The position numbers and the translations under genes are program-made. Below are positions 14,162 through 34,900 of a stretch of DNA of 40,010 nt, in pieces (the first letter of the stretch is position 1; each line of letters begins with the position of its first letter). The DNA comes from a virus, in the IMG/VR virus record IMGVR_UViG_3300007963_000011, positions 1-40,010 of that record; one strand, written 5' to 3'. The notes below the pieces were generated by a model, which saw nothing but the letters and a program-made list of their open reading frames with translations, was not told the origin of the DNA and did no database searches.

Positions 14162-15355
14162 GCCGGTAATCTGATCGGTCTGCATTAAGAATTCCAAGGC
14201 TGCCTCTAGCTCATCCTTCTTCAGATCGCTATGCCAATCTAACCACAGACGTTTGTGAGTTACACCTTCTGGTTTGCTGTTTACATATTCGCCAAGCTTC
14301 TTGGTAAATTCGTGGATTACATTCCTGCCTGTTAGGTCGTAGCTCAGGTGCATGAAGACCTCTGTCTCGGCGAGGAACTTCTCTGCGTGTTTGAAGGACT
14401 CTAGGCTAATTTCTGTAGACTCTGCGGAGCTACCCATCTGCACAGTCAGAGCGAGTTTCTGTAGATGGATGTTCTTCCGTGCGTAGTACAAGTCCAACTT
14501 AGGGCTGGAGTTTATCCTGCTGTTTATGTACATACCCTTTTCGTAGCGTTCCTTGTGGTAGGCGGCACACTCTGCCGACATGGGTACAGGCCCACACAGG
14601 TTGGCAAGTTTCTTTACGTGCTGAACCACCGCCGCCCTTGCTTTAACATGCTTGTCCTCGAAGCCGGTGAACTGCCGAAAGAACCTAGGCTGCTCTTGGT
14701 AGATCACAACAAACCGCGAGGTAAAACCTTGCGAGATAAGATTCTCGTTGAAGCACTCGCGGATAAACGATGGCGTAGTGCCAGCTATCAGCGACACGCA
14801 CACGTTTTGTACATTGTCTTTGCCCTGCTTCTTGGTGTAGTAGCGGTAGTTGCGTGCGTCGTAGAGTTGGTTAAGCATGTTGACGGTGTCCTCGGTGCGT
14901 TTCTTTAGGAAGACGCCGAGTTCCTCTACCAGCATCATACAGGACGCATGGATGTATTCCTTGCCGTCATCTAAGGTAAAGACCTTCGTGCAGTCACCAG
15001 CTAGGAACTCACTAAGGCACTCTGCCGTGATGCTGTCTGCACTATACTCGAATAAGGGTGTGGTCTTTTTCTTGTCCTTTGACATTACCTGCAGTTCGGT
15101 ATCCTGTATGATATCGGAGATCATAGAGATTAGACGGCTCTTGCCACAGGCGGGAGGGCCAACCAACAGCATGAACAGGTTAGGGTAGATTGCATTGATA
15201 CCCTGTGATGTCCATACCCTACGCTGGAGGCAACTACTTATGAGAAAGTAAAATCCCCAGTCTATGAAAAGGTCTGGGGATTCGAGGTCTTCTAGGTACA
15301 GCCTCCAACTGTCACGTACCGTCACGCTACACCTCCCCATGTGTCGCCGATACAA
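14117..15355 (-). CDS. DUF3987/D5-like P-loop ATPase, probable replication helicase (412 aa)
   Basis: Clear P-loop at about residues 66-73 (GPPACGKSR), a Walker B candidate near 140-146 (MMLVEELG), a polar strand with Thr (SLIAGTTPSF, about 188-197) and an arginine-finger candidate in GFTSRFVVIY (210-219). The C-terminus looks like a winged helix (THKRLWLDWHSDLKKDELEA, about 360-380). This domain order resembles DUF3987 and D5-type helicase-primase ATPases, which are common beside phage polymerases, so a role in replication fork unwinding is likely. No primase catalytic domain is visible. Its start overlaps the polymerase gene by 34 bases, and its 3' end overlaps a convergent gene by 45 bases. 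An ATG five codons downstream is an alternative start. Confidence 0.75.
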   Translation of the reverse strand: MYRRHMGRCSVTVRDSWRLYLEDLESPDLFIDWGFYFLISSCLQRRVWTSQGINAIYPNLFMLLVGPPACGKSRLISMISDIIQDTELQVMSKDKKKTTPLFEYSADSITAECLSEFLAGDCTKVFTLDDGKEYIHASCMMLVEELGVFLKKRTEDTVNMLNQLYDARNYRYYTKKQGKDNVQNVCVSLIAGTTPSFIRECFNENLISQGFTSRFVVIYQEQPRFFRQFTGFEDKHVKARAAVVQHVKKLANLCGPVPMSAECAAYHKERYEKGMYINSRINSSPKLDLYYARKNIHLQKLALTVQMGSSAESTEISLESFKHAEKFLAETEVFMHLSYDLTGRNVIHEFTKKLGEYVNSKPEGVTHKRLWLDWHSDLKKDELEAALEFLMQTDQITGSRKGGKLVYLPRAS

Positions 15356-17709
15356 GCCTCGCTCTTCATGGCGAAACGCTCACCACGTGGCGAAACTAGA
15401 TCACAGTTCATTATAGCCATAGTTTCCTTGGCAACGTAGTCCACGTGTTCTGGTGGACATTGCAGTAGGACGCTATCGTGGTTGTTCTGTACGATATCTA
15501 CGTCCATTGAGGACAGGGGGTCTTTTTGATTTTCTATTTTCTGTTGCATTTTAGTAAACGTGATGTTGGTTATTGTCCCAACGGTTGATTGCGGTACGAA
15601 AGCGTAGGCTTCCTTGTGCATGGATTCGTCTATGATAGAGGTAAAGACACGGGGGTAGCCGAAGAGATTGCGTAGCACACCGTCTCGGCGTAGAGTATCG
15701 ACAGTCTCCCTGTGCCAGCCTCGTATCTCTGGGAACAGGTCGTGGTAAGTGTTGAGGAATACCTTGGCCTCGGCCTGAGATATGGAGACCTTGCCCTCAG
15801 ACTTCTGTAGGAGATTCAGCCTAAACGTAGGGGGCTTCATGCCGTAGTTGCTGGCATGACAAACCATCTTGGCAATGAAGTAGTAGCGTTTCTCTGCGCT
15901 CCAGTTGTCGCTGGACTTTATTAACTTGTCGAGTTCGCCCCAGCCTCGCAGCGTAGCAACCTCGGCAATCGGTGCAGTACAGTAGTTATCGACCGAGCGG
16001 CCCAGTTCTGCAGACCACACTTCGGCAAACAAACGAAGGGCAACATACACATGACTTTTAATCCCATGTAGAAAGAGACTGCGAAAGTTACCCTTAGCAC
16101 ACAGGTAAGAAACGACAAGTGCCTCTGCACCTGACTGATCCACTTGGACAAAGACTTTGTTTTCATCTGGTAGGAATATCTTGCGTAAATCCTTGGGGAA
16201 GTTTTGCACGTTTGTACCCCAGCGGCCAAGCAATCTTTTAGAGGCTAGCCTAAACGTGGTAGTCCCGGCCAAGTTGTACCCCGTGGTAATCCTTTCCTTG
16301 GTTGTTCCACGTGGAACATACGGTGGGAACTTTAGCTGCCCCGACTGCTTGGCTACGCCACGGTACTTTAGGATGATGGTGAGTACAGGATTCGGGTGCT
16401 TCAGACGTAGCTGCAGCAGAGTCTTCTCATTGGTCATATCCTTGACCGGCTTCTTATACCCCATACCATCATATAGATAAGCCGAGACCTGCTTGGGGCT
16501 GTTAGGATTCAACGTATACCCCACAAGCAGCTTCAACATACGAGAGAGCTGGGCGCAGTAGCGCGTGTTGTAAACCACACGGTCGTCTAAGTCCTGCTTG
16601 TTGTAGTTGATACCCTGCAGCATGGCCGTTAGATACGGTGCGATGCTGTCGTTTACCTGTTGGATACTGTCCTCTGCGTAGAGTTGCTTCGCGTGGATGG
16701 TTAGCTTTGGTTTGAGTAGGGCTAGGCTTATAACATCCTTGGCGTTGTAGTGGTAGAGGGAGAGGATTTGCTGCTGGTTGCGCGGTTCAAAGACACCGTC
16801 GTTCTTGTGGTACTCGCGGTCAGCGTAGAGGGAGATGCAATGGCCTAGGGATTTCTCGACTTCGGGGCATAGGCGATGGTGTGCGAGCATCGTATCGTAG
16901 ACTTTGCGCGGGGCAGGGATACCATACTTGTAGGCCATGACGAAGAGGTCGAACAAGGCATTGTGGATTACCACCGTATTGTCGCGGAATGCCACCGCCA
17001 AGGCTCTTAAAATTCTTGCTGTACCCAGACCACCATAGTAGTACGCACGGCGCGGGATTTCGTACATCGGAACACAGATAGCTTCCGCCTCTGACCAACC
17101 GTACCCAAAGCACGTAAGCGTCAAGTCACTAGCGGTCTCTACGTCAAAGAATAAATCCTTGCCCTTCGTTTCTGTAAGGTCTTTAACTACTGCTTCAATA
17201 TCTGGATAGATTACCTCACCCAACTCTTCTATCTTTGGCTTTACCAGAAGATACCGACACGCTTTCTTGATATCTTTCCGTAACCAAAACCGCCAGTTCT
17301 GTCGCTTGGTCTTACCGTGCGTAGCCTTATCATCGTCGCTGCCGCCGGTGTACTCTGTGTTAGGGTTGAAGTAGTTCTTGCGATCGAAGGCATCCTGCGG
17401 CATATACGACGCGAGATGTATAACGTCACCCTCCATCCAAGGGTTGCCTCTCTGCTCATCGAGACCTACGCCCGGTTTGTACTGATGCAAAGACTTACGC
17501 CCAAGCAACAACACAACCCTAGTGTTCGGTAGGTAGCCTGCGTTTAACGTAGACAACGTACGCAGGTCACAAGATTCACGGCTAACCCCAAGTGTAGAAT
17601 CGAAAAACGCCCCCGCGTAGCCGCTCATAAGAACGTGGCGGTCAAACCGCGAGGGCGTGTCGATTACGACAGTTAGGCCTGAGTATTTCTCAGCAGGCTT
17701 ATGACGCAT
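15322..17709 (-). CDS. polA: Family A DNA polymerase with 3'-5' exonuclease and degenerate glycosylase-like N-terminus
   Basis: 795 residues. Residues 1-150 resemble a uracil-DNA glycosylase-like fold (VVLLLGRKSLHQYKPG, then IHLASYMPQDAFD), with the catalytic-type motifs not preserved. The exonuclease has Exo I FFDVETAS (Asp189, Glu191), Exo II NALFD (Asn250, Asp254) and Exo III YNAKD (Tyr321, Asp325). The polymerase has motif A VDQSGAEA (Asp524), motif B with Lys614, Tyr622 and Gly623, and motif C HDS (His744, Asp745). The residue matching E. coli Phe762 is His618. It replicates the phage genome. It overlaps the genes on both sides (11 bases upstream, 34 downstream), so it lies in one operon with the ATPase gene. 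Confidence 0.95.
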   Translation of the reverse strand: MRHKPAEKYSGLTVVIDTPSRFDRHVLMSGYAGAFFDSTLGVSRESCDLRTLSTLNAGYLPNTRVVLLLGRKSLHQYKPGVGLDEQRGNPWMEGDVIHLASYMPQDAFDRKNYFNPNTEYTGGSDDDKATHGKTKRQNWRFWLRKDIKKACRYLLVKPKIEELGEVIYPDIEAVVKDLTETKGKDLFFDVETASDLTLTCFGYGWSEAEAICVPMYEIPRRAYYYGGLGTARILRALAVAFRDNTVVIHNALFDLFVMAYKYGIPAPRKVYDTMLAHHRLCPEVEKSLGHCISLYADREYHKNDGVFEPRNQQQILSLYHYNAKDVISLALLKPKLTIHAKQLYAEDSIQQVNDSIAPYLTAMLQGINYNKQDLDDRVVYNTRYCAQLSRMLKLLVGYTLNPNSPKQVSAYLYDGMGYKKPVKDMTNEKTLLQLRLKHPNPVLTIILKYRGVAKQSGQLKFPPYVPRGTTKERITTGYNLAGTTTFRLASKRLLGRWGTNVQNFPKDLRKIFLPDENKVFVQVDQSGAEALVVSYLCAKGNFRSLFLHGIKSHVYVALRLFAEVWSAELGRSVDNYCTAPIAEVATLRGWGELDKLIKSSDNWSAEKRYYFIAKMVCHASNYGMKPPTFRLNLLQKSEGKVSISQAEAKVFLNTYHDLFPEIRGWHRETVDTLRRDGVLRNLFGYPRVFTSIIDESMHKEAYAFVPQSTVGTITNITFTKMQQKIENQKDPLSSMDVDIVQNNHDSVLLQCPPEHVDYVAKETMAIMNCDLVSPRGERFAMKSEACIGDTWGGVA

Positions 17710-17965
17710 CGGTTGGCAACTCTAGCTCCATGAGCTTTGCTGTAGCGATCTCTTCAGACTCCTTGTTGAAGTCTTTATTAGACTTGAAGTTCTCGTCTGC
17801 GTAGGACGCAATCAAAGAACCGGCATCTTGAAAGCCAGCCTTGTATCCAACGACGAGAACCTTTGCCATGAGTTCCTTTAACCTGTGCGCCAAGGCTTCA
17901 CAGTCTTGAGGCTTCTTAGGGGCCAAGCTTTCCAACTCTTGCTTTACGTGTTCAATTACTGTCAA
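17699..17965 (-). CDS. Hypothetical acidic helical protein (88 aa)
   Basis: Starts with TTG, and the start is well supported: a perfect AAGGAGG ribosome binding site lies about 5 bases upstream, inside the end of the preceding small gene, whose TGA overlaps this start. The protein is helical and charged, with a conserved-looking centre LAHRLKELMAKVLVVGYKAG and an acidic second half (SYADENFKSNKDFNKESEE). No family is recognised. It overlaps the polymerase start by 11 bases, so it is probably translated together with it and may assist replication (inference from position only). Confidence 0.75.
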   Translation of the reverse strand: MTVIEHVKQELESLAPKKPQDCEALAHRLKELMAKVLVVGYKAGFQDAGSLIASYADENFKSNKDFNKESEEIATAKLMELELPTDAS

Positions 17966-18129
17966 CGTGGCCTCCTTAGTCCTAGTGATAAAAGACGGGG
18001 TACGTACTGGTTTAGACGTAGCTTCCTGTCTCGTGCTTCTACCTTTAGCCTCTTATGTAGGCCTTCCGGTATTAGTATCGCGCAGTATCTTTTTACGCGC
18101 CCATCAGATTTAGGTTTTGTTATGTTCAT
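17962..18129 (-). CDS. Small ribbon-helix-helix DNA-binding protein (55 aa)
   Basis: A 55-residue frame, MNITKPKSDGRVKRYCAILI followed by PEGLHKRLKVEARDRKLRLN and QYVPRLLSLGL. The order is a basic N-terminal arm, a short beta strand (RYCAILIPE), helix one (GLHKRLKVEARDR), a turn with Asn, and helix two (NQYVPRLLSLGL). This is the Arc/MetJ/CopG ribbon-helix-helix pattern, in which a dimer inserts the strand in the DNA major groove. It lacks a visible ribosome binding site and is preceded at 16 bases by the candidate structured RNA at 18146-18229. Its TGA overlaps the next TTG start. It may be a phage regulator, possibly acting on its own operon (inference). Confidence 0.75.
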   Translation of the reverse strand: MNITKPKSDGRVKRYCAILIPEGLHKRLKVEARDRKLRLNQYVPRLLSLGLRRPR

Positions 18130-18145: not shown

Positions 18146-18229
18146 GAGGCTTGCGTTTGTTTCAGAAGGGGGTGAAAGAGTTACACCTACCTGACGTAGA
18201 ATCTCTCCACGTACCATACCGCAAGCCTC
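18146..18229 (-). ncRNA. Candidate three-way-junction RNA, copy B
   Basis: The gap between the ssDNA-binding-protein gene and the ribbon-helix-helix gene folds, on the leftward strand, as a 10-bp perfect closing stem (GAGGCTTGCG with CGCAAGCCTC). The stem encloses a 7-bp hairpin (18194-18212, one G-U pair) with loop GAGAU and a second hairpin at 18171-18187. The joining segments read AUGG before the first hairpin and GAAACA before the closing strand. The element begins 8 bases after a stop and ends 16 bases before an ATG. The same plan occurs at 22861-22936. It could be a riboswitch, processing site or translation control element. Confidence 0.45.
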
Positions 18230-18237
18230 GTATGAGA

Positions 18238-18720
18238 CTAGAACCCCGACAGATCGTGGTCTTCAGCAGCTTCTAACCTGCGTTCCACGTTGTAGCGATA
18301 GTTCGCCAACGGCTGCCCAGTTATGGGGTCGATCATAGGATCACCTGTGATCTCGTCCATCCTAGACTCGGTCTTCGTGTAGAGTACAGCCTTAAAAGCT
18401 TTACCCTTTAGACCTGCCGCTATGTCATCGTACTCTTCCAGCTCAAAATCTTCTGGCAGATCAAAGATTTTGTGATACTCCTTCAGACTCCGTGATGGAA
18501 TCAGAGGGTAGTCCCTAACTTGAACGCCACCGACTTCAACGAAACCCCTAGGCCCGTTAACTTCTGTGGGTTCCACAACCTCAGCTACAACAGCAACCAT
18601 GTCGTTGCCCTTGCTGCTAACCTTGCGCTCGGCTTCGACAATGCGAAGCGTGTATGTACCGTTCGGGAGGTAAGGCCTACCCGAACTTTCCGTAATGTCC
18701 TTTAGACTTATTCTAGCCAT
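18238..18720 (-). CDS. Probable single-stranded DNA-binding protein, DUF669-like (160 aa)
   Basis: The N-terminal half has an OB-fold-like arrangement: YLPNGTYTLRIVEAERKVSS, then KGNDMVAVVAEVVEP, then beta strands with GGVQVRDYPL. The C-terminus becomes acidic and ends AAEDHDLSGF, an acidic tip with a terminal aromatic residue as in many SSB proteins and T7 gp2.5, where it recruits replication partners. Phage proteins of this sort protect single strands during replication and recombination. It lies upstream of the polymerase in the leftward operon, and a Sak4-like annealing ATPase is encoded nearby. No ribosome binding site is seen before the ATG. Confidence 0.7.
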   Translation of the reverse strand: MARISLKDITESSGRPYLPNGTYTLRIVEAERKVSSKGNDMVAVVAEVVEPTEVNGPRGFVEVGGVQVRDYPLIPSRSLKEYHKIFDLPEDFELEEYDDIAAGLKGKAFKAVLYTKTESRMDEITGDPMIDPITGQPLANYRYNVERRLEAAEDHDLSGF

Positions 18721-22267: not shown

Positions 22268-22849
22268 TTATCTTACCACGTTTAACGCACCATTGTCCGT
22301 GTCGAACTCAAAGTCTACAAGTTTTTGCTGCTCTTCCAACCACTTGGTATCCTTCGTATCAACCCTGACGTTCTCCCTGTTGAATGTATCCATCTCCTCG
22401 GCTGTCTGTAGCCAAGCGAGTAGCTCTCCCTTCCATACGGACGAGTCCGCAAACTCATACTGTAGTTCTCTAGCTTTAATTTGGTTGCGTGTGGTGTCCT
22501 TGAAGTAAATCAAGACACCAGCGTTTGTCTTGCGTAGCGCAACCTGAGTGCGTAGTTCCCCATAGATTGGCCCGTATTCCGCAGAGTTATCGACAAGAAA
22601 CTTGAAGCCGTCGGTTAACTTTACATAGAGAGTGTTGACTGTGTAGCCTGTCTCCTCCGCTGTGATTACGATATCCTTCTGACCATTAAGTAACTTATCC
22701 AAGATAGGCTTTATCTTGTAAGCACTGGTCGGACTGTACGTCGAGCGAGAAACTGCAGACTTGGTTCGCATTTTACGCAAGAGTGCGGAGTGATCCTCTA
22801 GGGTTGCGGCTTTTGCGCGTATCTTATCTGTATTGTTTATATCATCCAT
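22268..22849 (-). CDS. Hypothetical protein (193 aa)
   Basis: I prefer the ATG at 22849 (MDDINNTDKIRAKAATLEDH) to the in-frame ATG at 22888, because the longer start would lie inside the candidate structured RNA at 22861-22936. The protein has a basic N-terminal region (LLRKMRTKSAVSRSTYSPTS), a beta-rich centre (DIVITAEETGYTVNTLYVKL) and a C-terminal helical part rich in Trp and acidic residues. The centre could be a small DNA-binding or cystatin-like fold, but I do not recognise the family. It is followed 7 bases later by a membrane micro-gene. Confidence 0.7.
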   Translation of the reverse strand: MDDINNTDKIRAKAATLEDHSALLRKMRTKSAVSRSTYSPTSAYKIKPILDKLLNGQKDIVITAEETGYTVNTLYVKLTDGFKFLVDNSAEYGPIYGELRTQVALRKTNAGVLIYFKDTTRNQIKARELQYEFADSSVWKGELLAWLQTAEEMDTFNRENVRVDTKDTKWLEEQQKLVDFEFDTDNGALNVVR

Positions 22850-22860
22850 GTGTATAAAAT

Positions 22861-22936
22861 AGGGTAGCGTAGTGTTTCTCACGGCCATGATTAAGCCGGT
22901 TCGTACATCTCGTACGACACCATGCTACGCTACCCT
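22861..22936 (-). ncRNA. Candidate three-way-junction RNA, copy A
   Basis: On the leftward strand a 12-bp perfect stem (AGGGTAGCGTAG with CTACGCTACCCT) encloses two hairpins: 22901-22917 (UCGUAC, loop GAGAU, GUACGA) and 22882-22898 (CGGC with GCCG). Joining segments are CAUGGUG before the first hairpin and GAAACA directly against the closing strand. It starts 7 bases after a stop codon and ends 11 bases before the next ATG. The plan, loop and joining motifs match the copy at 18146-18229, while the stem sequences differ, as expected of a selected RNA structure. Confidence 0.5.
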
Positions 22937-22943
22937 TGTTTAC

Positions 22944-23369
22944 TTAGGCCTCCTTCTCGGCGGCCATCAGTTCCTCCATGCGAGCAAGGACAGCTTTGCC
23001 CTCGTCGAATTCGCCAGCAGCAAAGTATGCCTTGGCCTTCTTGAACAGTTTGCCGGGAGTCTCCCCGCCACCTGCTTCTGGAGTCCACTTGTCTGCGTCC
23101 TCCTTGGAGTAGATCACCAAGTCAGGGTACTTCTCCGTCAACTCGGCCCGTAGCTCATCAGTCGTCTTGCCGTTAGGCTTCAACGAGTTCTTTACCGTAG
23201 ACCGAATTCGTGCGCTAACCTGCTGGTTCAGCAAGCCTAGCGTTTTTGCCTCACCGTACCTAGAAACTACGTCTGCTGTAGTCTTGAACTCTGGTACATG
23301 GAACTTGAAGTCTTTCCAATCTCCCGACTGGAAATGCTCCACCTCGTATGTGGTATCTATCGTTTGCAT
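22944..23369 (-). CDS. Hypothetical protein, first gene after the sigma-54-like promoter (141 aa)
   Basis: Reads MQTIDTTYEVEHFQSGDWKD, then FKFHVPEF, a helical segment (VVSRYGEAKTLGLLNQQVSA) with a basic run RIRSTVKNSLKPNGK, then an acidic helical C-terminus (FDEGKAVLARMEELMAAEKEA). A GAGAGATAAA stretch lies just before the ATG, giving a fair ribosome binding site. I recognise no family. Its place directly behind the hairpin-rich leader and the candidate -24/-12 promoter suggests it is strongly or conditionally expressed, perhaps a nucleic-acid-binding regulator (inference). Confidence 0.7.
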   Translation of the reverse strand: MQTIDTTYEVEHFQSGDWKDFKFHVPEFKTTADVVSRYGEAKTLGLLNQQVSARIRSTVKNSLKPNGKTTDELRAELTEKYPDLVIYSKEDADKWTPEAGGGETPGKLFKKAKAYFAAGEFDEGKAVLARMEELMAAEKEA

Positions 23370-23681: not shown

Positions 23682-24455
23682 TTATCGGTCGCCCTCCCAA
23701 TGGAAGTCTAGGCTATGTGGGCCTAGGACTTTATACTGGGTTGCCAATCGGAGTAGCTCTCGGACATTGCCCCTCAGTAGGGGAGGGCGTACCCATTGGC
23801 TTGCCTTAGCCCCGGCATGGAGTAAGGCGAGGAAGTCCTCGTACTCTGCGTTGGTCAGGATATTCTTGAGGATAAGGCGGGCATCTTCCATACGCTCCCT
23901 CAACGGCTTTAGCTTTAACCTAAACGTGGCTATCCTATGGTACAGGTCATCACGGAAGTCAGAACCCAAACAGTTTGTAGCAAAGACAAACCTGCCTGTG
24001 AAGTCCGTGTCCTCGTTCTCCCCTATCCTACGAAATTTGCGGGTCTCTATCAGTCGCAACAGCATCACCTGTATCGCAGGGGTTATGTCTCCGATTTCGT
24101 CCAGAAAAAGCGTACCTTTGGAGGCAGCGACCAGCAGACCCATACGACTGCTGGTTGCCCCGCTGTAGCTTCCCTTTACATGGCCGAAGAGTTCGGCCTG
24201 TACCAAGGCGTCAGGCATAGCCGATAGATTCAAGGCTATAAACCTACCCGTGCGCCTACCGTGTAGCCTTTCCGCCACAAGTTCTTTACCCGTACCTGAC
24301 TCGCCCGTGATAAGGACAGACTCAGGCCTATGGGATAGCTTGTCCGCTGCCTCTAGCACACGCAGACAGTCGGCGTCTTGGGTTATAAACTTCCCCGTGT
24401 TGTAGGCTATGTTCTGTTTCTTGAGAACCTTGAGCTGGGCTTCTAGGCTAGGCAT
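23682..24455 (-). CDS. Stand-alone sigma-54-activator-type AAA+ ATPase (257 aa)
   Basis: Carries a full bacterial enhancer-binding AAA+ domain: Walker A GESGTGKE (51-58), ELFGHVKG, the sigma-54-contact loop GSYSGA at 95-100 (variant of GAFTGA), Walker B GTLFLDEIGD (114-123), the arginine-finger segment FRDDLYHRI (167-175), LKPLRERMED, and the sensor-II-type GNVRELLR (229-236). There is no N-terminal receiver or sensing domain and no C-terminal Fis-type helix-turn-helix, so it is only the motor. Family members use ATP to open sigma-54 promoters. A perfect AAGGAGG lies just before the ATG. It overlaps the upstream gene by 8 bases. Its downstream gap holds a -24/-12 promoter. A replication role cannot be excluded. 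Confidence 0.85.
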   Translation of the reverse strand: MPSLEAQLKVLKKQNIAYNTGKFITQDADCLRVLEAADKLSHRPESVLITGESGTGKELVAERLHGRRTGRFIALNLSAMPDALVQAELFGHVKGSYSGATSSRMGLLVAASKGTLFLDEIGDITPAIQVMLLRLIETRKFRRIGENEDTDFTGRFVFATNCLGSDFRDDLYHRIATFRLKLKPLRERMEDARLILKNILTNAEYEDFLALLHAGAKASQWVRPPLLRGNVRELLRLATQYKVLGPHSLDFHWEGDR

Positions 24456-31229: not shown

Positions 31230-31409
31230 TTTTTTGAAGTCTATGGCAGTAGACGCCACGCGAACGGGGGCCACGCATCGCGCATGGCTTGTCTCCGCCG
31301 CCGTTGTCAAATCTACCATAGGCGTCTAGCTTACTCCCGATTTGCGGGATGCGTCAACATGTATTTTCAATTCCTAAGTTTGTAATTTGAGGGGTAACTG
31401 TTGGTTATT

Positions 31410-31431
31410 GTTGACTAATAAATTAGTCAAC
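31410..31431. promoter_or_regulatory. 22-bp palindrome, left copy
   Basis: Arms GTTGACTAAT and ATTAGTCAAC with a 2-base centre. Its half site TTGACT is also like a -35 hexamer. An almost identical 22-bp palindrome lies 139 bp to the right (31549-31570), on the other side of an AT-rich tract. This is a probable binding-site pair for a dimeric regulator or replication initiator in the divergent intergenic region. Confidence 0.7.
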
Positions 31432-31469: not shown

Positions 31470-31520
31470 TATTTATATATATATATTTATATTATCATTA
31501 TAGATATAGAAACCTTTAAT
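31470..31520. other. AT-rich tract between the twin palindromes
   Basis: About 50 bases almost without G or C, including an alternating TA run (atatatatat) and TTATATTATCATTATAG. Such tracts melt easily and are found at replication origins and strong promoters. It is bracketed by the two 22-bp palindromes. Confidence 0.6.
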
Positions 31521-31548: not shown

Positions 31549-31570
31549 GTTGACTAACTTATTAGTCAAC
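31549..31570. promoter_or_regulatory. 22-bp palindrome, right copy
   Basis: Arms GTTGACTAA and TTAGTCAAC around CTTA, matching the left copy at 20 of 22 bases. It lies directly after a pyrimidine-rich run (CCTCTTTTCCTTTTTTG). As one of a pair, it may bind the same protein as the left copy and allow DNA looping. Confidence 0.7.
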
Positions 31571-31934: not shown

Positions 31935-34900
31935 TACGGCAGTTTAAGCCGCATAAGGCTCCGGCAGGGGTTAGGGGCTACCGGCCTCAAGCGATTGCAG
32001 AACATCCCCCAGCAGCCATAGTGGACTACGGAGTACCCTCCATAGACCACGGGCTGCCGCAGAGGCCGCCTACACCCCCTGTAGCACCTACACCCCCTGT
32101 AGTCGATTTAAGAGGGCTACCCGAAATTCCCATGCTTGTCCCGTATCCCCCAACAACGGCCCAGATTCCCAGAACTATGGGTACTCCAGCACTACCCCCT
32201 GACTGGTATCCAGAAACACCCAACCGAATCTGGACTCCCCAACCTCAGCCAACAACAAGCCCAAGGCTACGTCGAAACACGGGCGAGGGAGACCTCCCCA
32301 TAAACATACCCTCTGTCAACCTACCCACCACAACTACAACCCCACAAAGACCCTATCCACCTTATACACAACCAAACGTGGGCGTTGATACAACAGCCGA
32401 AAGCTACAACCTCCCCCCACAGCAACAGACAATCTACGAAAGACCCACCACAATAGACTACGGCCCAATAACAACCCCCATAGCTCGCCCCATACAAGAA
32501 GACGTAGGCTACATTGAACCCCAGCAATCTTACCCTATTACACCCGGCCCCCAAATAACCGCTACTGAACAAGCCTTCTACGAACCCCAACCCGTCGAAA
32601 GCGCATACGCCTACCCTATCCAAGTAGACTACCCCCAACCCCAACCTCTACCCCCCGACTTAAACCCCGACTTAAACCCCGACGAGATAACAAGCCTAAT
32701 AGACACCCTCATACCTGAACAGCAGGAAACCAAAACTATCAACTTCCCGCAAGAAGGCCCACAATGGGTAGAAGACCCCCAAGCTTTGGCAGCACAAGAA
32801 GCCATAGATCAAGCAGGCTTCGACCAAACTGACCCCTCTATCTATCAGTCACAACCCACAATAGACGAAATCCCCGAACTAACCTACAACCAACCACAAC
32901 AACAAGACCCCTTCGTCATAGACTATGGCCCAACCTACGGAGACCCTGTCGTACAAGAAACCACTCAAGCACCCTACTTACCACCAGTAGAACAGTCCAT
33001 ACAGGAGCTACCCGTAACTCAACCTCCAGAAGTGGGTATGCCGGAAATCCCGGTAGAAAAAATCGTAGATGAAACAGATGATACAGTAGCGGGTATGTAC
33101 TACCAAACCCCAGATGTGGAGAATTTATCACCCGGCGGAGGTGTACAGGCTGGGGGCAACCTTTCTTGGGAAGACCTTCAATACAAAAACGCCCAAGAAA
33201 GTACAGGAATAAACGAAAAGTTCGCTATTCCCGGTGGCCCAGTCGAAAGAGACCCCGAAGGTGCAGCAGCTATCGCAGAAGCTTTAGAAGATGACACAGC
33301 TACCGACGCCACTATCCCAGCTAAAACAATCACACCAGAAGGCGTAGTCGTAGACGACTCTGGCAAAACTTACACCGTAGACACAGAAGCAGGCGTAGAC
33401 ATCGAACAGCTTCCAGAAACCCCGTTTGCTGGTGAAGTTGCAGAAGGCCCGATGGTTGACCCTACGGAAGCTACAGACCCAAAACCCTTTACACCGGAAA
33501 TCGCTGATCCGCCTGCGCCAACAGAAGGTGTAGACATAACGGCGCAGGTTGACCCGGCGTTAACTACCGCCAGCACCGGAGGCCGTAAATGGTTACACAC
33601 AGGCCCATCAGACTTTGCAGAAACACTCCATCAGTTCAAAATAAACAGAGGCTCGTCTGGGCCACCTATCGTAACCGATACCCCTGCTGTATCTGGCCCT
33701 GTAGTCAACAGAGAGACCGGTGAAATAACAAGGGAACCCCTCACATGGCATCAGTTTAATCCAGCAGGTGGTTCGGTAAGCCCTTACACCGAGGGTATAA
33801 ACACAGGTACAGAAACAGGCGCGAAAGGCCCGCCAGATGTAACGGGTGTATCAGCTACTTCCGGTACTGGAAGAGGTGGAGAGGGTAGAACTCCGTTTCA
33901 GACCTTCCTTGAAAACCAAGATAACGCAGGTGAACTAATACCCGGTGGCTTGAACCTTGATATGGCCTCATTAAAAGGTCAGGCTGGTATAAATCAACTG
34001 CGGTCTGAAATGACCGCAAAAGACTTTGAAGGTATAGACTCCTTTGAAGGCCTTGGAAACTTCTTTAACCTAAAACCAGCTTTCCAAGGATTTGGAGAAA
34101 GTATAGCAGGCGCAATTCAAGAGTTAACCGGCATGGAAGCTGGAGACCTTAAAGGGCCGGGGCTATGGGATACTCTTAATACTCCAATACCTGCGTTCTC
34201 CACAGGTGAATTTGGCATCACACCACTTGACATCATTACTGTAATAGCTTCCGGTACGGTTGCAATCGGCCCTATCCTAGTGAAAAAGTTTATGGATTCG
34301 CTGATGCAACCCTTTGAAGCTGCGGTAACTGACGGCTTAAAGGGGGTCTTCAATACCGTGTTCAAACGCGGTGGCGAAAACTACAACAAACAGCCAGTAT
34401 CCCAAGAAAACATTAACGCCGCTGATCTTGAGGTTTTAGCTGAAGAACTCGGTATAGACAAGCCTTCCGGTATGATAGAGGCGGGTACTTACTACGGTGC
34501 AGATGGCACTGTAATAGCTAGAAACATGAAGCCATTAGATTTTGGTTTGAACACCGTAGACGGTGCAAACTCCTTCAAGGATGTGTTACATGCTGTAGGG
34601 GCTAAAGCTGACCCCGGTTACACCAGCATTAAATACAACACACAAACAGGTCAGGTAGATGTTGTCCACGCTGATGGTAGTGTTACTGAAAATGCCAGTC
34701 ATATTACTGTAGACAGCGAAGGGAACATGCAGCAAGGTACGGGCAACAGTAAGAAAACCAAGAAGGTTAACTGGGGTGTTAAAGTTATTGGTGTTAATGC
34801 TATAGATACTGTTGCTCCCCGCAAAGACAAAGGTAAGGGCAAAGGCAAAGGCAAAGGTGGGTCTATCTGGGACTGGATTAAAGATAAGTTACCCGGCAAG

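Follow-up and report, generated by a model that had tools for sequence, protein, structure and literature searches.

The put RNAs of HK022 are phage RNAs of about 70 nt, built from two adjacent stem-loops near early promoters, that act as antiterminators without the need for phage proteins. The theta (HDV-like) ribozymes found in gut phages fold as HDV-type pseudoknots and cleave at the 3' end of tRNAs (PMC10879173), and the RNA-based anti-CRISPRs (Racrs) are solitary phage RNA units that mimic CRISPR repeats (PMC10651486). The element described here, which is present twice in a 40,010-base IMG/VR virus record (hereafter the window, meaning the whole stretch of DNA that was analysed), is a new, unnamed class of small structured RNA. 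Neither the window nor six further loci gave a match in Rfam 15 at the gathering threshold, and at E values of up to 10 just chance matches to miRNAs, sRNAs and snoRNAs appeared, far below threshold; this agrees with the preliminary description, in which the motif was not recognised as a known riboswitch or ribozyme. The open-access literature likewise holds no description of the motif that we could find; subscription papers or preprints might contain one.

Both copies occupy gaps between genes on the minus strand (Table 1), where their closing stems (P1) belong to the small number of long, spaced inverted repeats of the window. What the preliminary description had reported for the two gaps was confirmed to the base: P1 is perfect over 12 bp in copy A and 10 bp in copy B, AUGGU and the loop GAGAU are found in both, and GAAACA lies directly before the 3' arm of P1 (P1') in copy A, with AA in between in copy B. 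The same holds for the distances from the upstream stop codon to the stem (7 and 8 nt for copies A and B) and from the stem to the downstream ATG (11 and 16 nt), as well as for the lack of a clear ribosome binding site in front of either downstream gene. For either copy RNAfold, which had been named as a refuting test, retained P1 as well as the GAGAU hairpin and returned a three-way junction (copy A, -36.7 kcal/mol, z -5.7; copy B, -32.5 kcal/mol, z -3.2); the minimum-energy details of the inner junction depart slightly from the consensus and between the copies, with P1 and P2 unchanged. A covariance-model check had been proposed too, and here covariance model R2, trained without copy B, recovered that copy at 39.9 bits (E 4.6e-9), while copy A, which was in the training set, scored 74.2 bits (E 8.7e-19). 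No third copy was found by this model in the 40,010 bases. The window holds one member of each of the two types, a and b, into which most of the family falls.

Table 1. Coordinates of the RNA elements, their flanking genes and element-adjacent tRNA genes.
Feature	Record	Positions	Strand	Remark
Copy A, whole element	window	22861-22936	-	type a: GAAACA abuts P1'
Copy A, P1 5' arm, AGGGTAGCGTAG	window	22925-22936	-	pairs with 22861-22872
Copy A, J1/2	window	22918-22924	-	conserved core CAUGGUG
Copy A, P2	window	22901-22917	-	TCGTAC-GAGAU-GTACGA, 6 bp, GAGAN pentaloop
Copy A, P3	window	22882-22898	-	base CGG/CCG, variable loop
Copy A, J3/1	window	22873-22878	-	GAAACA
Copy A, P1 3' arm, CTACGCTACCCT	window	22861-22872	-	
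Copy B, whole element	window	18146-18229	-	type b: AA between GAAACA and P1'
Copy B, P2	window	18195-18211	-	CGTGGA-GAGAU-TCTACG; A18212/U18194 flank, G.A position
Copy B, J3/1	window	18158-18163	-	GAAACA, then AA, then P1' 18146-18155
Gene upstream of copy A	window	22944-23369	-	141 aa, no family; stop TAA 7 nt before P1
Gene downstream of copy A	window	22268-22849	-	193 aa, no family
Gene upstream of copy B	window	18238-18720	-	160 aa; stop TAG 8 nt before P1
Gene downstream of copy B	window	17962-18129	-	55 aa; weak HicB-like match below cut-off
tRNA-Arg(UCU)	L057	227-300		
tRNA-Arg(UCU)	L060	739-815		
tRNA-Arg(UCU)	L230	4144-4218		
tRNA-Arg(UCU)	L404	4728-4804		
tRNA-Arg(UCU)	L428	74-148		

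The window contains a leftward replication-type operon with genes for a DNA polymerase (15322-17709), an exonuclease and a helicase, and the 160-aa product encoded upstream of copy B has a weak ssDNA-binding/DUF669 match. The leftward operon with copies A and B also includes, unusually for a phage, a gene for a protein with a sigma-54 activator AAA+ domain (23682-24455, minus strand; PF00158, E 2.5e-46). At its head stands a long imperfect stem, CTATGGTAGA...TCTACTGCCATAG (about 31240-31340, minus strand), which gave no match to the three-way-junction family. An inverted repeat, GTTGACTAA..TTAGTCAAC, occurs twice at a spacing of about 130 nt (31410-31431, 31549-31570, 31470-31492), on either side of an AT-rich stretch in the gap between the divergent gene runs, a candidate operator or origin. 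Further on, positions 32001-33000 (plus strand) combine an extreme GC skew of -0.43 with an AT skew of +0.38; this is the start of a 1008-aa ORF without a family match, and a strongly biased coding sequence.

Across the family, the element measures about 75-110 nt and folds into a three-way junction of P1, P2 (with the GAGAN loop) and P3, in which a fixed core, (C)AUGGUG / GAGAN / AC-nnG / GAAACA, is combined with helices that are free in sequence and strictly paired. P1 spans mostly 5-20 bp, with a median of about 10, whereas P2 has 6 bp and carries at its base a G.A pair (G22918 opposite A22900 in copy A), which is found in 98 of 104 distinct members and is replaced by A.G in 4 and by A-U in 2. 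P2 is followed by C, P3, three loose bases, GAAACA and P1', with P3 consisting of at least 3 bp and a variable loop and having a near-invariant G as its third 5' base. In type a (60/104) the 5' joining strand is CAUGGUG and GAAACA abuts P1'; in type b (38/104) the strand reads NNAUGGU(G) and AA separates GAAACA from P1'.

Two-sided changes occur at 19 of the 20 pairs in 28 diverse type-a sequences, and likewise in 100 distinct members. Covariation in the 28 sequences amounts to 0.999, against 0.234 after shuffling and at most 0.195 in slid registers; in the alignment of 100 distinct model hits, which was fitted to the covariance model, it is 0.807 against 0.190, with 91% of cells paired. All 11 modelled pairs of P1 covary, as does the base of P3, and P2 is paired in 99.5% of cells among 100 distinct members. 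P2 contains 24 G.U against 2 A.C, an excess that fits the strand assigned to the element as an RNA. The preliminary description had asked for homologues with covarying stems, and since these are abundant, the reality of the element is far beyond chance, and copies A and B represent one motif, a selected structured RNA. To some extent the search patterns themselves force the core to be invariant, and the second copies that were found by the model only keep this core as well, with GAAAUA, a GGAAU loop (in a tandem pair) and one decayed copy as single exceptions. A GNAA-loop version of the pattern gave one match across IMG/VR, with P2 unpaired, so that the loop is essentially GAGA and GNRA loops in general are rejected. 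A small conserved ORF beginning at the AUG of AUGGUG was also considered and ruled out, as the core lengths are distributed evenly over the three frames (39/34/31) and the copies inside ORFs use different frames.

With the DNA polymerase as query, 34 related loci were collected. Copy B lies upstream of the polymerase in those relatives of at least 83% identity that cover the site, and its P2 is changed yet paired among them (CGTGGA/TCTACG, CGCAGA/TCTGCG, CGTAGG/CCTACG and TGTAGA/TCTACA). Copy A was found in all relatives reaching its site, and the virus family of the window retains both copies. The distant relatives L024-L027 and L029 (58-59% identity) have no copy within the 5-20 kb covered; the element is hence probably gained and lost among relatives.

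A pattern of the joining motifs only, which left both P2 arms and the entire P1 unconstrained, gave at least 120 matches in IMG/VR. All six P2 pairs are formed in 108 of the 120 matches listed, at a chance of 0.28% each, and P1 is long in most of the matches listed. One exact P2 variant, which accounts for 10 of the 108 among the matches listed, occurs in 40 contigs across IMG/VR, which suggests, as a rough estimate, a family of about 430 IMG/VR contigs. The carriers are mostly uncultured, otherwise unrelated bacterial viruses with one or two copies per whole record; 15 diverse members gave no blastn match at E 0.1 against 50,697 records of cultured or annotated phages. With a stricter pattern, 84,980 bacterial and archaeal genomes yielded ten matches (Verrucomicrobia, Acidobacteria, Planctomycetota, Myxococcales, Nocardia and unclassified MAGs), and in one order of Verrucomicrobia the element was present in 2 of 177 genomes; this rarity marks it as mainly a phage element. 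Two copies are present in the genome of the named strain Geminisphaera colitermitum TAV2. In an all-against-all comparison of 28 carriers, no protein family was common to all and none occurred in more than 9, for which reason a phage protein partner was rejected. Tandem pairs are found in L158, L247, L376, L378, L382, L392 and L395, the one in L382 (also L437) being located on a 193.8-kb near-jumbo phage record. In the L016 record (G058), seemingly the same copy stands at 11-99 and 46560-46648, at either end of a contig of 46,649 bases, whose genome is thus probably complete with redundant ends.

The placement of the element is independent of the neighbouring gene. In 53 of 60 cases it shares the strand of the gene in front of it (upstream/downstream strands relative to the element: +/+ 48, +/- 5, -/- 4, -/+ 3), counts which, like the gene distances, rest on a simple gene caller. 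In 27 of the 58 intergenic cases with a same-strand upstream gene, the distance from that gene's stop codon to the start of P1 is -3 to 14 nt. No relationship links the genes upstream, which encode, among others, an endolysin, RusA, a replication initiator, HNH, an ssDNA-binding protein and a head protease. Downstream genes start from 5 to more than 800 nt away. Copies occur all along same-strand gene runs, the last position included, and some close a run and face convergent genes; promoter-proximal placement was not seen across the family copies. A strong intrinsic terminator follows within 14 nt in about eight members and within the full 70-nt span in 11 of 104, compared with 4.7% of random positions. 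In L057, L060 and L230, at least three lineages, a tRNA-Arg(UCU) begins a few bases past P1', and the same applies to L404 and L428. Any tRNA directly 3' of the element on the same strand is a tRNA-Arg(UCU), in several lineages. In L187, L203, L170 and L211, right before the element stands a hairpin, GTCAGAACGCTGAC, that overlaps the upstream stop codon. Such neighbour-independent placement speaks against both a riboswitch serving the downstream gene and self-cleavage as an obligatory property.

Copies also occur inside ORFs, 12 on the same and 3 on the opposite strand. In L183, L246, L255 and L241 the element stands in frame within the large terminase gene, between the regions encoding the ATPase and nuclease domains, where it forms an extra loop of the terminase; the terminases of G005, G043 and G044, carriers with a copy elsewhere, are without this stretch. 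Further in-frame copies are located in a portal gene (L210) and in a Mu-type transposase gene (L271). The encoded peptide diverges (SGEIPEQASSLPCETP / PEENSGQASSLPSETL / SDERSEQGFHGSPSETP) with the RNA pairs kept, and the reading frame across the element differs from gene to gene, which together constitute the strongest sign that the RNA, and not the local gene, is under selection.

The sense-strand location, the lack of a fixed neighbour, the one or two copies per genome and the tolerance of coding sequence, together with hosts from many phyla and no shared phage protein, point to a module whose sole requirement is transcription. The reading we rank first, albeit tentatively, is that of a stand-alone RNA module which is carried by any host transcript and binds a widely conserved host partner. 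With somewhat more reserve, one can imagine an unnamed phage RNA class that has moved between unrelated phages and targets in trans a component conserved from one bacterial phylum to another, with RNA polymerase, the ribosome, an RNase or a defence complex as candidates. Such an element could find room at any site of the genome, down to an in-frame insertion into the large terminase, and would be carried, and possibly released, by whichever transcript contains it. P1 would represent a sequence-free clamp that closes the module within any transcript, coding ones included, and the rigid core and the GAGAN loop, at a fixed distance set by P2, could bind a partner conserved across bacterial phyla, be it a host protein, a ribonucleoprotein or a defence component, and thereby titrate or redirect it to the benefit of the phage. 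We infer the action in trans mainly from placement; most copies are situated within operons, and those may exert an effect in cis. As hundreds of unrelated phages carry the element, even in essential genes, it probably does an important and so far undescribed job.

Second in our ranking, and in our view unlikely, is a new self-cleaving ribozyme that would separate upstream and downstream parts of phage transcripts, as theta ribozymes do beside phage tRNAs. Circular permutation is frequent, though not obligatory, in self-cleaving ribozymes, and with the one permuted pattern that was searched no permuted forms were seen, the true matches being tandem copies and the others chance matches. The small invariant core, the sequence-free helices, the missing gene association, the hosts of many phyla, the adjacency to stop codons and tRNAs and the phage precedent of theta ribozymes (PMC10879173) would all suit such an activity; however, no Rfam ribozyme family matches, and the in-frame copies would sever the essential mRNAs of terminase, portal and transposase, which speaks against efficient cleavage. 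Rather improbable is a cis-acting mRNA element, either a 3' exonuclease barrier for the upstream gene or an RNase III or RNase E site: a plain hairpin would suffice for this and leave the invariant core unexplained, copies inside ORFs would be senseless as 3' barriers, and there are just one or two copies per genome, even though P1 is very stable and lies flush against the preceding stop codon in roughly half of the cases, and some copies directly precede terminators. Nothing in the family data points toward processing of the T7 type, which had been proposed as well.

Less probable still is that the downstream gene is controlled by a riboswitch or by a translation switch that senses a protein, the reading of the preliminary description. 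In its favour are the short distances, in the window, to start codons without clear ribosome binding sites, and the likeness of the tandem copies to tandem riboswitches. Across the family, however, the downstream genes belong to no consistent class, are unrelated and not conserved, and may be far off, convergent or absent, with a terminator or a tRNA in their place; some copies lie within ORFs, a perfect P1 of 10-20 bp is poorly suited as a switching helix, and no expression platform was seen. The earlier recognition of a selected, unfamiliar RNA stands, and its assignment as a switch for the next gene is probably wrong. We further doubt strongly that the nascent RNA acts on RNA polymerase as an antiterminator in the way that HK022 put does, since copies lie away from the starts of gene runs and several are found at the very end or directly before terminators; the RNA-only nature without need for a phage protein, the conservation of the polymerase across hosts and the one or two copies per genome would be in line with it. 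Last comes a DNA-level element (a single-strand origin, packaging or recombination site) merely resembling an RNA, for which the flexible location, the one or two copies per genome and the palindromic arms could be cited, and which we consider highly improbable given the strand bias with transcription (53/60), the preference for G.U over A.C in P2 and a GC skew that does not switch at copy A or B in the window.

If the favoured stand-alone module does bind a conserved host machine or defence system, it would give access to that machine or system through an RNA that is small, testable and portable; if the element were catalytic, it would constitute a new ribozyme class. In comparison with known systems, it shares with the hammerhead ribozymes of phages a three-way junction, conserved junction bases, a GAAA stretch and variable helices, but the CUGANGA strand is absent, as had been noted before, and the junction strands are ordered CAUGGUG / AC / UGAAACA (alignments A1, A2 and A5), without an Rfam match. 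Like theta ribozymes, it is a small phage RNA module without a protein partner that is widespread in uncultured phages and can adjoin tRNA genes, as theta ribozymes often do; it differs from them as a three-way junction that lies 5' of tRNAs in a few lineages and also inside ORFs, without an Rfam match or known cleavage. In contrast to the two stem-loops of HK022 put, it is a single junction closed by P1 that may stand anywhere in a gene run, from start to end. Unlike Racrs, finally, the element is a longer three-way junction, and the two are likened by their way of working alone: position-free and acting in trans on a host system, which is how we tentatively imagine the element to work.
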